A DNA stretch of 64,000 bases from Nocardia sp. NBC_01327 (GTDB lineage Bacteria > Actinomycetota > Actinomycetes > Mycobacteriales > Mycobacteriaceae). Position 1 is the stretch's first letter. Every line of letters starts with the position of its first letter. The stretch spans positions 8,432,001 to 8,496,000 of the forward strand of contig NZ_CP108383.1 of NCBI RefSeq assembly GCF_035958815.1. The letters run 5' to 3'. The notes under the pieces were generated by a model that saw only the letters and a list, made by a program, of their open reading frames with translations, was not told where the DNA came from and made no database searches. Position numbers and translations under genes: made by a program. Below are positions 54,879 to 60,668 of the stretch, one piece after another.

Positions 54879-55781
54879 TCAGCCCTGGATGCTGAAGCAG
54901 GTGGTGCAGAAGTCCTCGCCGAATTCGGTCAGTCGCAGGCTCTTTCGCACGATCTTGGGCGCCCGGCCGGCCTTCTTGAGCGCGGTCTCCACCACCGGCT
55001 GCACCTCCAGCACCATGTAGCGCGACAGCACCACCGGATCATCGGAGGTGGTGGTGAGCCCGAGCCGGTTCAGATTGATCAGATAGTGCCGGGCGCGGTC
55101 CGGGTAGCGCACGCCCGCCTGCTCCGGCACCGAGGTGAGATCACCCTGCACGAGTTCCGAACCGATGCCCAGCGGGCGGTTGGTGCGCACATCGACGGTC
55201 GGCTGCGGGCCGTTCAGCGCCATGAAGCGCAGGATGCGGGCCTCGTCGGGCGCGAGCTGATCGAGAATGCGGTCGTAGGCCGGATGCACGTCCTCGGTGA
55301 AATAGACGTCCGCCGAGCGCGCCAGCAGTGAGTCGCCGCGGCGGCGCAGCTCTTCGCTGCTGGCCGAACGCAGCAGGCTGCCCGCCCCGATGGCATGCTG
55401 ATTCGGGCCACCGACCGGTGTCGGGACATAGCTGACGATCTCGCGCACCGAACCCTCGGTGACGCCGAGCGCGCTGCGCGCGATGGACCGCAGCGCCGCA
55501 CCCGTGCGCTCGGCGATATCGGCCGACGATTCGCCGTCCAGCGCGGCCTGGGTCAACTGCTTGGTGATCTCGAAGCTGGTGCCGACCGCCCACTGGCCGC
55601 TGCGGGCCGCGGTGCCGACCGCCAGCCCGGCTGCCCGGAACACGCCGCGAATCAGCCGGGCCTCATTGCTGATCTGCCGCTGCTCGACTTCCGAGCTGCG
55701 TTCCACGGCACGAGAACCCGGACGGACCACCTCCGCCGCACCCCCCGGCGCCTGCACGGTCCTGTCCTCTGCCACGTCCAT
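54879..55781 (-). CDS. Abi-alpha (DUF4393-like) protein, copy 1
   Basis: 300 residues. After an Ala-rich helical N-terminus (FRAAGLAVGTAARSGQWAVGTSFEITKQLTQAALDGESS), the C-terminal half carries VHPAYDRILDQLAPDEARILRFMALNGPQPTVDVR, YLINLNRLGL and a terminal LTEFGEDFCTTCF, the Abi-alpha pattern. Family members were named after an abortive-infection protein, but actinobacterial copies are widespread and uncharacterised. A paralogue lies at 57440-58297, on the far side of a DUF445 gene. Divergent from DUF445 with a 345-bp gap. Defence role unproven. Confidence 0.6.
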   Translation of the reverse strand: MDVAEDRTVQAPGGAAEVVRPGSRAVERSSEVEQRQISNEARLIRGVFRAAGLAVGTAARSGQWAVGTSFEITKQLTQAALDGESSADIAERTGAALRSIARSALGVTEGSVREIVSYVPTPVGGPNQHAIGAGSLLRSASSEELRRRGDSLLARSADVYFTEDVHPAYDRILDQLAPDEARILRFMALNGPQPTVDVRTNRPLGIGSELVQGDLTSVPEQAGVRYPDRARHYLINLNRLGLTTTSDDPVVLSRYMVLEVQPVVETALKKAGRAPKIVRKSLRLTEFGEDFCTTCFSIQG

Positions 55782-56126: not shown

Positions 56127-57449
56127 GTGCTAGAGAGTCTTTTCGGAGTCCACCCGACAATATTGCTGGAACTGATCACGATTCCGTTGTTCACGGGTGT
56201 CATCGGCTACATCACCAACTGGACCGGCGTGCTCATGCTGTTCAAGCCGATCAGTTTTCACGGCATCCGGGTTCCGGGGCTCGCGGCCTTGTTTCCGTTC
56301 CTGCCCAAGCGGATTCAGGTGCTGCCGCTGCTGCAGTACGACGGCCGGATGGGCTGGCAGGGGATTGTGCCGTCGCGTGCGGACAAGATGGCGAGTATCG
56401 CGGTCGACAAAGGACTGGCGAAACTCGGGAGCGTCTCGGACTTCTATCGGGAACTCGAACCCGACAAGCTCGCCGAACATCTCACCGAAATAGCGGAACT
56501 CCAGATTCGCGACATCGTGGAAGACATCCTGAAACGCGAACATCCGCAACTTTGGTACAACCTGCCCAATGGCGTTCGCGAGATGGTGCACTCGCGCGTG
56601 GCCGAACAGCTCCCCACAATTCTGCGTGAACTCACCGATGAACTCGGCAACAACATCGATCAACTGCTCGACGTCAAGCAGATGGTGATTCGCTACTTCC
56701 AGGCGCGACCGCAGTTGCTCAACAGCCTGTTCCAGGTGCTGGGCGCCAAGGAACTCCGGTTCATGCAGAACTTCGGTTTCTACTTCGGCGCGCCCATGGG
56801 CCTGGTGCTGGTCGGCATCCTGCACTGGACCGGATGGTCGGCGCTGGCGGTGCTGCCGATCGGCGGCATCGTCATCGGCTGGGTGGTCAACTGGGTCGGC
56901 ATCAATATGATCTTCGCGCCCGCCTACCCGAAGTGGTGGGTGCCGTGGCGGCAGGGGCTGCTCGTCAAGCGGCAGCCCGAGATCACCGAGGGCTATGCGG
57001 ACATGGTGGCCAGTCAGATCATGACGGTCGCCAATATCGGCGACGAACTGCTCAACGGGCCGCGCTCGGACCGCACCATGCAGATGCTGGCCGACACCCT
57101 CAAGCCGGCGGCGGACCAGGCGCTCGGGCCCGCCCGCGGGGCGGTGAAGTTCCTGCTCGGCAATCGTGAATACGACGAGCTACAGGACAGTTTCACCGCC
57201 GAGTCCATGAAGATCGCGCCGATCGCCTTCGCGGACCCGGCGTTCAACGTGCAGCAGGGCAAGCAGGTCCAGGAGTACATCGCCAAACAAATGTCGGCGC
57301 TGCCGCCGCCGGACTTCGTGGACATGCTGCGATCGGCCATCAAACAAGATGAATGGCTCTTGTTTGTCCATGGCGGTGTGCTGGGGCTCATCGCCGGTTA
57401 CGCTCACCTCCTGATCTTCGGAACAGGAGTGGCTACCTCATGGATATGA
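56127..57449 (+). CDS. DUF445 family membrane protein
   Basis: About 440 residues from the GTG at 56127, 6 nt after AGGAGG (another GTG at 56121 directly abuts it). The hallmark PLFTGVIGYITNWTGVLMLF near the N-terminus and IGWVVNWVGINMIFAPAYPKWW in the middle are the two DUF445 repeats. Membrane segments lie at the N-terminus, centre and C-terminus (FVHGGVLGLIAGYAHLLIFG), with a long helical region between them (REMVHSRVAEQLPTILRELT). Function unknown; a lipid or envelope role has been suggested for the family. It overlaps the next Abi-alpha gene by 10 bp. Confidence 0.85.
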   Translation: MLESLFGVHPTILLELITIPLFTGVIGYITNWTGVLMLFKPISFHGIRVPGLAALFPFLPKRIQVLPLLQYDGRMGWQGIVPSRADKMASIAVDKGLAKLGSVSDFYRELEPDKLAEHLTEIAELQIRDIVEDILKREHPQLWYNLPNGVREMVHSRVAEQLPTILRELTDELGNNIDQLLDVKQMVIRYFQARPQLLNSLFQVLGAKELRFMQNFGFYFGAPMGLVLVGILHWTGWSALAVLPIGGIVIGWVVNWVGINMIFAPAYPKWWVPWRQGLLVKRQPEITEGYADMVASQIMTVANIGDELLNGPRSDRTMQMLADTLKPAADQALGPARGAVKFLLGNREYDELQDSFTAESMKIAPIAFADPAFNVQQGKQVQEYIAKQMSALPPPDFVDMLRSAIKQDEWLLFVHGGVLGLIAGYAHLLIFGTGVATSWI

Positions 57450-58297
57450 CCGAAACCGACTCGGGCGAAGGGGAACCCGCAGATACCTCCACCGAGCTGG
57501 TGGTGCGGCCCGCCGCGCCGCTGCCGGTTCCGGTACCCGGGTCCGCCTACCCCGCCGGACCGGTGCGCACCGCGACCGGCGTTGTCCGGGTTGCCATGTC
57601 GGCGGCCGTGGAGGCCGGAGTCTGGAGCCTCAGCACCGCGCTCGGCGTCACCTCGGTGGTGCTGCGGGGCAGTATGGCCGGTCATCCGCCGCGCGATATC
57701 CTCTCCGAAGCCGGTGCCCAGGTGCGGCATTCGGTGCGGCAGGTACTGGGGGTCGCCGCCACCGATGTGGCCGAGACCGACGCACCCGCGCCCTCCCCCA
57801 CCACCGTCCTGCGGGCGCGCGGCGCCGAATTACTGCGCCGCTCAGCCGATTTCCACACCGAGGACGATAATCACCACCCCGCCTACGCCCGCATTCTCGG
57901 TGAGCTCGCTCCCGACGAAGCACGCATAGTGCGCCACCTCTATCTGGACGGCCCGCAGCCCGCCCTCGAAGTGCGCGGCGGGCGCGCCGCCGCCGGTGGC
58001 CAATTCAACCTGCTGGGTGACGATGCCGGTCTGCGCTATCCGAATCGGGTCGAGGAATACCTCATCAACCTCGACCGCCTCGGCCTCATCGACGTCACCC
58101 GCGAGCCGCTCGGCAATCCCAATCGCTACCAGTTGCTCGAGGCCCTCCCCGAAGTCCGCCGCCTCCTCAAGCGCACCAGCTTCGGCACCAAAGTCCTCTA
58201 CCGCACAGTCGAACTGACGTCCTTCGGCGCCGGTTTCGTCCGCACCTGCCTCCCGGTCCCGTCCCTCGACCACCCTCCCCTAGAACACCACGGCTGA
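57440..58297 (+). CDS. Abi-alpha (DUF4393-like) protein, copy 2
   Basis: 285 residues from the ATG at 57440 (an ATG two codons on is also possible). Same plan as copy 1: Ala/Val-rich N-terminal helix (GVVRVAMSAAVEAGVWSLSTAL), then NHHPAYARILGELAPDEARIVRHL, DGPQPALEVR, YLINLDRLGLIDV and the C-terminal LTSFGAGFVRTC. It overlaps the DUF445 stop by 10 bp, so they are co-translated. The two copies clearly derive from one ancestor but differ at many positions. Possibly partners of DUF445 in a membrane complex (inference). Confidence 0.6.
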   Translation: MDMTETDSGEGEPADTSTELVVRPAAPLPVPVPGSAYPAGPVRTATGVVRVAMSAAVEAGVWSLSTALGVTSVVLRGSMAGHPPRDILSEAGAQVRHSVRQVLGVAATDVAETDAPAPSPTTVLRARGAELLRRSADFHTEDDNHHPAYARILGELAPDEARIVRHLYLDGPQPALEVRGGRAAAGGQFNLLGDDAGLRYPNRVEEYLINLDRLGLIDVTREPLGNPNRYQLLEALPEVRRLLKRTSFGTKVLYRTVELTSFGAGFVRTCLPVPSLDHPPLEHHG

Positions 58298-58314
58298 CCT
58301 CTCCGCATACGAAA

Positions 58315-58550
58315 CAGCCCGCACCCGAACAGCACTCACACAGCCTGTGCCATCCGGATGCGGGCTGAGTGGTACCGAACAGCCCGCGTTCACACCGAAC
58401 AGCGCTGGTAACGCCTGTGCGGTGCGAACAAGGGCTGCGCGGAAACACGGGCTGTGCCGTGCGGAGCTGGGCTGAGTGGTACCGAACAGCCGGTGTCCGG
58501 ACCGAACAGCTCTTGTAGAGGCTGTGTGGTCCGGACACCGGCTGTTCGGT
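58315..58550. repeat. array of three long imperfect palindromes
   Basis: Unit 1 (58315-58367): CAGCCCGCA ... TGCGGGCTG. Unit 2 (58380-58437): paired blocks CAGCCC/GGGCTG, GTTC/GAAC, CACCG/CGGTG and ACAG/CTGT. Unit 3 (58481-58550): perfect 23-bp arms starting ACCGAACAGCCGG with an inner ACAGC/GCTGT stem. GGGCTGAGTGGTACCGAACA... is directly repeated for 23 bp at 58362-58384 and 58469-58491. GAACAGC occurs in every unit. It lies between convergent gene ends, so it may terminate transcription, but a triple array with conserved cores is more than a simple terminator. Confidence 0.85.
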
Positions 58551-58570: not shown

Positions 58571-60358
58571 TTAGTAGTCGGCGAGTTCGAGCCAGCGCTC
58601 TTCGGTGGATTCCTTTTCGGCCTGGACCTGTTTGAGTTCGGTGCCGAGGGCGATGAGCTTGTCGGGGGTGGTCGCGGCGTCGGCGAGGGCGGCGTGCAGT
58701 TTCGCCTCGCGTTCGTCCAGCTTTTGGATGGCACGCTCCAGCTTGGAGAGTTCCTTGCGGGCGGCGCGGTGGGCGGCGGCGTCGGTGACGGGTGCGGTGG
58801 CGTTCGAGGAGCTCTGGCCGCCGACCTTGGCGGCCGACATGGCGGCGCGCTTCTTCAGGTATTCGGTGATGCCGCCGGGCAGGTTGGTGAGTTTGCCGTC
58901 GCCGAACAGCGCCCAGGTGGAATCACAGATGCGTTCCACCAGGTACCGGTCGTGGGAGATGACGACCATGGTGCCGGCCCAGTTGTCGAGCAGGTCCTCC
59001 AACTGCTGGAGGGTGTCGATATCCAGGTCGTTGGTCGGCTCGTCCAGCAGCAGGACATTGGGCTCGGCCATGAGGATTCGGGTCAGCTGCAGGCGGCGGC
59101 GCTCACCACCGGAGAGATCGCGGATCGGCGTGCGCTGTTTGGCAGGCGTGAAGCCCAGGCGCTCGGCCAGCTGGCTGGCGCTGATCTCCTTGCCGCCCAG
59201 CATGGTTCGCATGGCGACATCCTGAACCGCTTCCAGCGCACGCATATCCAGCGGCAGGTCGTCGAGTTCCTGTCGCAGCCAGCCGATCTTGACGGTCTGG
59301 CCTTCGATGCGCTTGCCGACCTTCAATTCCGAATCACCGGCGAGGGCGCGCAGCAGCGTGGTCTTGCCGGAGCCGTTCACGCCGACCAGGCCGACGCGCT
59401 CACCGGGGGCGAGTCGCCAGGTCAAGTCCTGCACCAGTTCCCGGCCGTCCGGGGTCGCGAGGGTGGCGTCCTCGAGCTCGATCACCACGCGGCCCAGGCG
59501 TTTACGGGCGAACGACGCCAGCGCGACACTGTCGCGGGGCGCGGGCACATCGGCGATCAGCGCCTCGGCGGCCTCGATGCGGTACTTCGGCTTGGAGGTG
59601 CGGGCGGGCGCGCCGCGGCGCAGCCAGGCGAGTTCCTTGCGGGCCAGGTTCTGGCGGCGCGCCTCGGTGGCGTCGGCCTGCCGGGTGCGCTCGGCACGCG
59701 CGAAGATCCAGTCGTTGTAGCCGCCCTCGTAGGTCTCCACCTTGCCGCCCTGCACCTCCCAGGTGCGGGTGGCGACGGTATCGAGGAACCAGCGATCGTG
59801 GGTGACCACGACCAGTGCGCTGCGCCGCGCGACCAGATGTTCGGCCAGCCACTGCACACCCTCGACATCCAGGTGGTTGGTGGGCTCGTCCAGTACCAGC
59901 AGGTCCAGATCGCGCACCAGCGCGGCGGCCAGCGCGGTACGGCGGCGCTCACCACCGGAGAGATTGGAGACCAGGGCGTCCATGCCGAGGTCGGCGATGC
60001 CGATGCCCTCGACCACCGTGCGGATGCGGGTATTGGCGGCCCATTCGTGCTCGGCGACGCCATCGGTCATCTGATCCTCGGCCAGGCCCGCGAGCACCAC
60101 CTCACCGACGGTCGCGCCGTCCGGCAGCACACCGCGCTGGGTGACCACGGCGATGCGCAGGCCGCCGACCCGGCTGACCCGTCCGCTGTCGGCCGGTTCG
60201 AGCCCGGTCAGCACCTCCAGCAGCGTCGTCTTACCACCGCCGTTGAGCCCCACCACCCCGATACGTTCCCCGGCATGCACCCCGAGCGAGACATTGTCCA
60301 GCAGCGGCGTGATCCCGAAGCTCTTCGAGACCTGTTCCAGATTGATGAGGTTGGACAT
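58571..60358 (-). CDS. ABC-F family ATPase
   Basis: 595 residues from the ATG at 60356-60358. Two ABC domains without membrane segments: Walker A NGGGKTTL and NGSGKTTL, signatures LSGGERRRTAL and LSGGERRRLQL, Walker B LLVLDEPTNHLD and LLLDEPTNDLD, and the characteristic ABC-F linker between. A C-terminal coiled coil (KLERAIQKLDEREAKLHAAL) follows. ABC-F proteins act on the ribosome E-site, resolving stalls or protecting against antibiotics (EttA/Uup type). The C-terminal coil favours a Uup-like subtype. It lies near ispE, as in corynebacteria. Antibiotic resistance not implied. Confidence 0.9.
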   Translation of the reverse strand: MSNLINLEQVSKSFGITPLLDNVSLGVHAGERIGVVGLNGGGKTTLLEVLTGLEPADSGRVSRVGGLRIAVVTQRGVLPDGATVGEVVLAGLAEDQMTDGVAEHEWAANTRIRTVVEGIGIADLGMDALVSNLSGGERRRTALAAALVRDLDLLVLDEPTNHLDVEGVQWLAEHLVARRSALVVVTHDRWFLDTVATRTWEVQGGKVETYEGGYNDWIFARAERTRQADATEARRQNLARKELAWLRRGAPARTSKPKYRIEAAEALIADVPAPRDSVALASFARKRLGRVVIELEDATLATPDGRELVQDLTWRLAPGERVGLVGVNGSGKTTLLRALAGDSELKVGKRIEGQTVKIGWLRQELDDLPLDMRALEAVQDVAMRTMLGGKEISASQLAERLGFTPAKQRTPIRDLSGGERRRLQLTRILMAEPNVLLLDEPTNDLDIDTLQQLEDLLDNWAGTMVVISHDRYLVERICDSTWALFGDGKLTNLPGGITEYLKKRAAMSAAKVGGQSSSNATAPVTDAAAHRAARKELSKLERAIQKLDEREAKLHAALADAATTPDKLIALGTELKQVQAEKESTEERWLELADY

Positions 60359-60668
60359 GAATCCTTCTGTATCGCGTCGACGGCGCAAACGGTGATCGCC
60401 CCCTGCAAGCCTACCGAGCCCGCCGCGACAGCCCCTGGCCAGTGCGGTGGGGCTCACAGGCAGTTGCCCTCGATGGCGCGCCCTGACGCAGCGATCGGCG
60501 CGGAAGAGACGACTCTTGTGCCGCCAAACATGTTGTGGTTGAGTCGAAAACACTTCGGTTAGTGGTTCCCTAGAAGTACGTCGCAGAACGGGAGCCCCTC
60601 ATCTCGCCTGAACGAGATGACGAAGGGGCGGCAGTGTATTTGCTCACCCCTTTTACGGAGGTCTTCTC
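60359..60668. other. intergenic region with TCATCTCG/CGAGATGA hairpin
   Basis: 310 bp between divergent ABC-F and LLM genes. A perfect 8-bp inverted repeat TCATCTCG-cctgaa-CGAGATGA at 60599-60620 lies 48 bp before the LLM start and could be an operator or an attenuator. No RNA gene or supported ORF seen. Confidence 0.45.

Follow-up and report, generated by a model that had tools for sequence, protein, structure and literature searches.

What is the row of long palindromes that fills the gap between two convergent genes of Nocardia sp. NBC_01327: a peculiarity of one locus, or part of a repeat family with a role of its own? The initial annotation of the window (the whole stretch of 64,000 nucleotides that was analysed) had described three long hairpins between convergent genes, a 23-bp direct repeat, and a perfect 23-bp stem with an inner stem in the last hairpin, and all of these features are borne out (Table 1). 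The first unit begins 12 bp past the stop of the left gene, and the half-sites of unit 2, at 58374 and 58394, lie 20 bp apart. In unit 3, the outer stem is formed by exact complements of 23 bp (58481-58503 and 58528-58550), inside which ACAGC pairs with GCTGT. Two copies of the direct repeat, GGGCTGAGTGGTACCGAACAGCC, lie 107 bp from each other, in register with a 105-nt direct repeat. The spacer between units 2 and 3 resembles extra right-arm half-sites (GGGCTGTGCCG, GGGCTGAGTGGT), and in an alignment its orthologue in the sister genome G143 includes further duplicated array material. The word CGAACAGC is found 14 times in the window, compared with 2.9 expected, and six of the 14 occurrences fall in the array. 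Compared with dinucleotide-shuffled sequences, the array has a much more stable predicted fold on either strand (z = -9.2 and -10.5).

Table 1 Features of the palindromic array and its flanking genes (positions in the window)
Feature	Position	Strand	Description	Evidence
Unit 1	58309..58373	.	65-bp nested palindrome, somewhat decayed	both-strand family-model match, inverted repeat I3, context
Unit 2	58374..58443	.	70-bp nested palindrome	inverted repeats, family-model match
Spacer between units 2 and 3	58444..58480	.		direct repeat D1, orthologue alignment
Unit 3	58481..58550	.	70-bp nested palindrome	inverted repeat I1, family-model match
Left convergent gene	57353..58297	+	Abi_alpha domain, ends just before unit 1	PF14337
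Right convergent gene	58571..60553	-	ABC-F ATPase, ends ~20 bp beyond unit 3	

By eye, the left gene looks like another gene of the window (54879-55781, minus strand), the two flanking a single gene; of these look-alikes, it is the left gene of the array in which the Abi_alpha domain was found.

A first DNA search of the genome (G000, 9.4 Mb) revealed related copies, and a covariance model (R1) built from an alignment of thirteen 70-bp copies matched ~75 places. The list of matches was near the scoring limit, and a 1.25-Mb sample was therefore rescanned as a check; only ~2 places were added, so that ~80 copies is a fair estimate, resting on the model searches and this sample. Unit 3 is the top-scoring copy of the genome (84.7 bits, E = 1.5e-17), with the unit itself having been part of the alignment behind the model. 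Together with the ~75 other matching places, this score indicates that the array is not a product of chance. The genome-wide palindrome search proposed in the initial annotation thus upholds its idea of a lineage-specific repeat family, with positions shared by the sister species and other subfamilies in the genus, while the opposite case considered there, an element occurring nowhere else and lost in close relatives, is refuted by the copies in G000 and the positions shared with G143.

The geometry of the family is fixed. Nearly all copies in G000 are 70 bp long; each arm carries two ACCGAACAGCCCG-like half-sites 20 bp apart, which are mirrored by the other arm, and the short centre is often TRTA. 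RCAGC motifs on the same strand are spaced by 20 bp in 77 pairs, by 19 bp in 9 and by 21 bp in 6; minor peaks lie at 40 and 60 bp. The spacers vary from copy to copy, yet pair within their own copy, and the model scores similarly on both strands, the element being nearly strand-symmetric. Single dispersed copies are mostly unlike one another and are not recent clones; several subfamilies are present per genome, and larger palindromes surround some copies. At some loci, the 20-bp unit is extended into tandem ladders. At one of these (L014:1380-1720; G000:C1, about 6969060-6969400), one arm has become ~7 tandem repeats of 19-20 bp, possibly an intermediate of array growth.

How far does the family extend? 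The sister genome contains at least ~75 copies, and R1 also detected ~17 copies in G138 and a few each in G016 and G027. A second model (R2), built from copies of the CACACCC type, matched 34 of 150 congeners (own genome counted) and a few genomes outside the genus. Across other Nocardia and Mycobacteriales, the same geometry is combined with the motifs CACACCC, CACAGAC and GCACCC; the copies measure 64-81 bp (64, 73, 78 and 81 bp were seen), and the half-sites are still 19-20 bp apart. Several genomes, such as G138, hold more than one motif type, and one site with CACAGCC in G000 has CACACCC at the orthologous position in G138. A motif switch throughout G138 was rejected: most of its CACACCC copies lie in a different, non-orthologous palindromic repeat of ~600 bp, and there is one true orthologous change. 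In this large palindrome (L213-L219), a nested palindrome of the CACACCC type occupies the central 70-72 bp, and no DUF222 gene is nearby. It is conceivable, although we would not expect it, that four-site palindromes of 64-81 bp with a shifting motif are spread throughout Mycobacteriales, which would imply a co-evolving putative DNA-binding or DNA-processing protein.

Most of the tested G143 loci have a counterpart in G000 between the same two genes, with a flank identity of ~92%, and the array of the window is also common to both genomes at the same gene pair, with a different number of units. Elsewhere, the element has been gained or lost: among four other G143 loci checked in G000, three (L168, L169 and L173) correspond to closely spaced flanking genes lacking the element, and at the counterpart of L167, ~3.6 kb separates the flanks. 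The three empty sites display neither a visible target-site duplication nor crisp boundaries. At L177/L089 and L183/L084, synteny between the two genomes was found mostly on a single flank, a hint that rearrangements may have broken the sequence close to elements.

The position of the copies was related to genes called with a home-made codon-usage gene caller. No copy in the sampled regions of G000 overlaps a called gene, although coding sequence makes up ~85% of the sample. Counted by locus, with the DUF222-linked subfamily left out, the 46 loci comprise 20 convergent, 23 co-directional and 3 divergent gaps, while element-free gaps of at least 80 bp (n = 521) comprise 56, 294 and 171, respectively; convergent gaps are thus enriched (odds ratio 6.4, p = 1e-7) and divergent gaps depleted (p = 8e-5). 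Of 48 loci in other genomes, 24 are flanked by convergent genes and a single one overlaps a called gene; several copies fill the stop-to-stop gap to within ~15 bp. This is also where published REPs lie (PMC3733652). Such placement is compatible with a role at the 3' ends of genes, but also with a safe harbour in which a repeat persists as a neutral or selfish sequence.

The locus of the window in other species bears on this point. In N. acidivorans and Nocardia sp. SYP-A9097, the same convergent gap contains a different palindrome made of CGTC-REP-like dimers, and in N. jejuensis it contains another hairpin; in N. crassostreae, the same gene pair is separated by ~20 bp without a palindrome, and in N. 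yamanashiensis and N. inohanensis by ~2 kb of different sequence that appears to be coding. Different palindromes therefore occupy this gap and none is required, as if any hairpin would serve.

Another important issue is whether the element, or a part of it, is under selection. Spacer covariation is strong across paralogues and species (score 0.41 versus 0.17 after shuffling), but it does not prove selection because each palindrome may be born by inverted copying. In 21 G000-G143 orthologue pairs, stem sites differ by 20%, and 12 compensatory double changes were counted where shuffling gave 8.3 on average (at most 18 in 5000 rounds), a non-significant excess made up of few, mostly single compensations. 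The covariance analysis proposed in the initial annotation thus gave strong covariation between paralogues but no significant compensation between orthologues, and selection on structure is not established; the compensated pairing of unit 2, from which it had been suggested there, cannot be assessed with a single sequence. The spacer pairs are partly decayed, with ~0.5-0.9 paired per column. A bias of G-U over A-C pairs, taken as a sign of selection on an RNA strand, was significant when pooled over cells, but was lost per locus with well-formed copies and is not claimed.

The half-sites behave differently. After exclusion of one pair that is probably out of register (L192/L128), core columns 7, 9, 27 and 28 and their partners 64, 62, 44 and 43 show no changes in 20 orthologue pairs, compared with ~27% changed in columns outside the motifs. 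This pattern points to the half-sites as the probably constrained part, the constancy being partly ascertained, as the search model by which the copies were detected itself favours the core. On inspection, several positions at which the right arm of unit 3 differs from its G143 counterpart match the unit's own left arm, which is suggestive of template switching; the predominance of single compensations between orthologues speaks against it.

Taken together, these data may best be described by a REP-like family whose dispersed intergenic palindromes have an undescribed architecture, with hairpins at transcript ends, recognised half-sites and template-switched arms, a joint reading on which our judgement is evenly balanced. 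The hairpins would act at transcript ends as a bidirectional barrier to read-through or as 3'-end protection between convergent genes. This is the most likely function, judging by the placement of the copies and their replacement by other hairpins, and we hold it with about middling confidence. The four phased half-sites would be kept by some recognition event. The arms would be made, and now and then refreshed, by template switching during replication, a documented origin of hairpins (PMC8794818); with such inverted copying, arms would match each other and not other copies.

An alternative that is possible, but on balance unlikely, is a miniature non-autonomous mobile element (REPIN- or MITE-like) whose transposase recognises the phased half-sites and for which the 3' placement is a harmless landing. 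Dispersal, the several subfamilies per genome, presence or absence between sister genomes and a patchy distribution among congeners are consistent with it, as are ~19 near-identical copies inside a longer repeat. Against it stand the dissimilarity of most single copies, the sharing of most tested G143 sites, the indistinct boundaries of the empty sites and the absence of target-site duplications, the flanks of 49 elements showing no exact duplication of more than 3 bp. Two candidate mobilisers were rejected. A RAYT (Y1_Tnp, PF01797) profile had no match in G000, while it matched 5 of 14 control genomes. A DUF222-HNH (13E12-type) gene is carried by the 16 G000 regions that hold the ~19 near-identical copies, some of which occur in G143, but no such gene lies near any tested locus from other genomes; more probably, a single element has travelled as a passenger of a longer repeat. 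In these cases (L109:7476-9967 and ~18 other copies), the element lies 3' of the repeated DUF222-HNH gene, in a longer inverted-repeat region.

It is also possible, though doubtful, that the copies are binding sites of a nucleoid-associated, topoisomerase-like or regulatory protein, with four half-sites on one helical face and the hairpin incidental. The 20-bp phasing with its minor peaks, the steadiness of core columns relative to spacers and a geometry that stays the same although species differ in motif all favour such sites. However, a pure duplex-binding site needs no pairing of spacers across the dyad, no candidate protein is named, and the several motif types in G138 weaken a model with a single factor.

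An equally tentative view holds that the palindromes are a functionless by-product: template switching, together with slippage between 20-bp repeats, would create and homogenise them, and they would be tolerated away from promoters and coding DNA. The tandem ladders, the larger palindromes around some copies, the decayed spacer pairs, the non-significant orthologue compensation and the documented mode of hairpin birth fit this view, which nevertheless does not account for a half-site motif common to the copies, a unit size fixed at 70 bp or the constancy of core columns. A family of structured small RNAs, another suggestion of the initial annotation, is highly improbable and gained no specific support: strong folding and paralogue covariation would agree with it, but both strands score alike, no Rfam match at curated thresholds is present at the element (the window contains only two tRNAs), no per-locus G-U signal is seen, and no promoter-like sites were found, the last being a weak test for this type of genome. 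For a DNA-processing site, the third suggestion made there, the data speak neither for nor against.

How does the preferred reading, a REP-like family at transcript ends, compare with known systems? An attC-like reading (GTTRRRY) was discarded by inspection, since GTTCGGT does not match. The uptake sequences of Neisseria (DUS) and Haemophilus (USS) are short motifs that occur as inverted pairs 3' of genes in thousands of copies. The Nocardia family resembles them in its inverted motif pairs 3' of genes and differs in having ~80 units and phased double half-sites. For actinobacterial intrinsic terminators, U-tract-less and bidirectional kinds have been proposed; these share with the present elements a GC-rich hairpin just past stops, often between convergent genes. 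In contrast, none of 98 element flanks has at least five T in 8 nt, so that the elements are not canonical intrinsic terminators, and only one site in the region matches the terminator consensus, namely a short inner stem. A shared motif and a fixed 70-bp geometry would also be unexpected of independent terminators.

The closest relatives are REPs and REPINs. As in REPINs, two inverted modules and a middle form one large hairpin, here the fixed mirrored 70-bp unit, with conserved modules and a variable middle (Bertels and Rainey 2011, PMC3116915); in contrast to REPINs, G000 lacks a RAYT, each arm has tandem half-sites, and single copies are mostly old and vertically shared. With the GTAG and CGTC superfamilies of REPs/BIMEs (Di Nocera 2013, PMC3733652), the family shares short intergenic palindromes in tens of copies, clustered 3' of genes near stop codons, mainly in convergent or unidirectional gaps, with several families per genome; CGTC REPs likewise have no dedicated transposase. 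Unlike REPs, which are single hairpins of 20-40 bp, the Nocardia unit spans 64-81 bp and has a pair of phased half-sites in each arm, its spacers differ between copies while self-pairing, and it has no GTAG or CGTC end tag (within 10 nt of 98 element ends, GTAG was found once, GTGG 3 times and CGTC 9 times). Since the REP/REPIN tag and RAYT, the MITE features and those of canonical terminators all failed, we call it a new REP-like family. A literature search, with most subscription papers beyond its reach, found no description of it, and the text of the 2013 survey mentions neither Actinobacteria nor Nocardia (PMC3733652).

G000 also contains a CGTC-tagged REP-like repeat (CGTCATCCCGGC, loop, GCCGGGAT) in 65 exact copies (none in the backwards control), often as inverted dimers (e.g., G000:C1:95216-95290 and C1:347122-347211); Actinobacteria do not figure among the five phyla in which the survey records CGTC REPs (PMC3733652). 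With orthologous copies in a sister species and other motifs farther off, the new family offers a comparative system for asking whether selection or template switching shapes such palindromes, and its four-site geometry, changing motif and lack of a RAYT suggest that REP-like repeats can exist without the known mobiliser.
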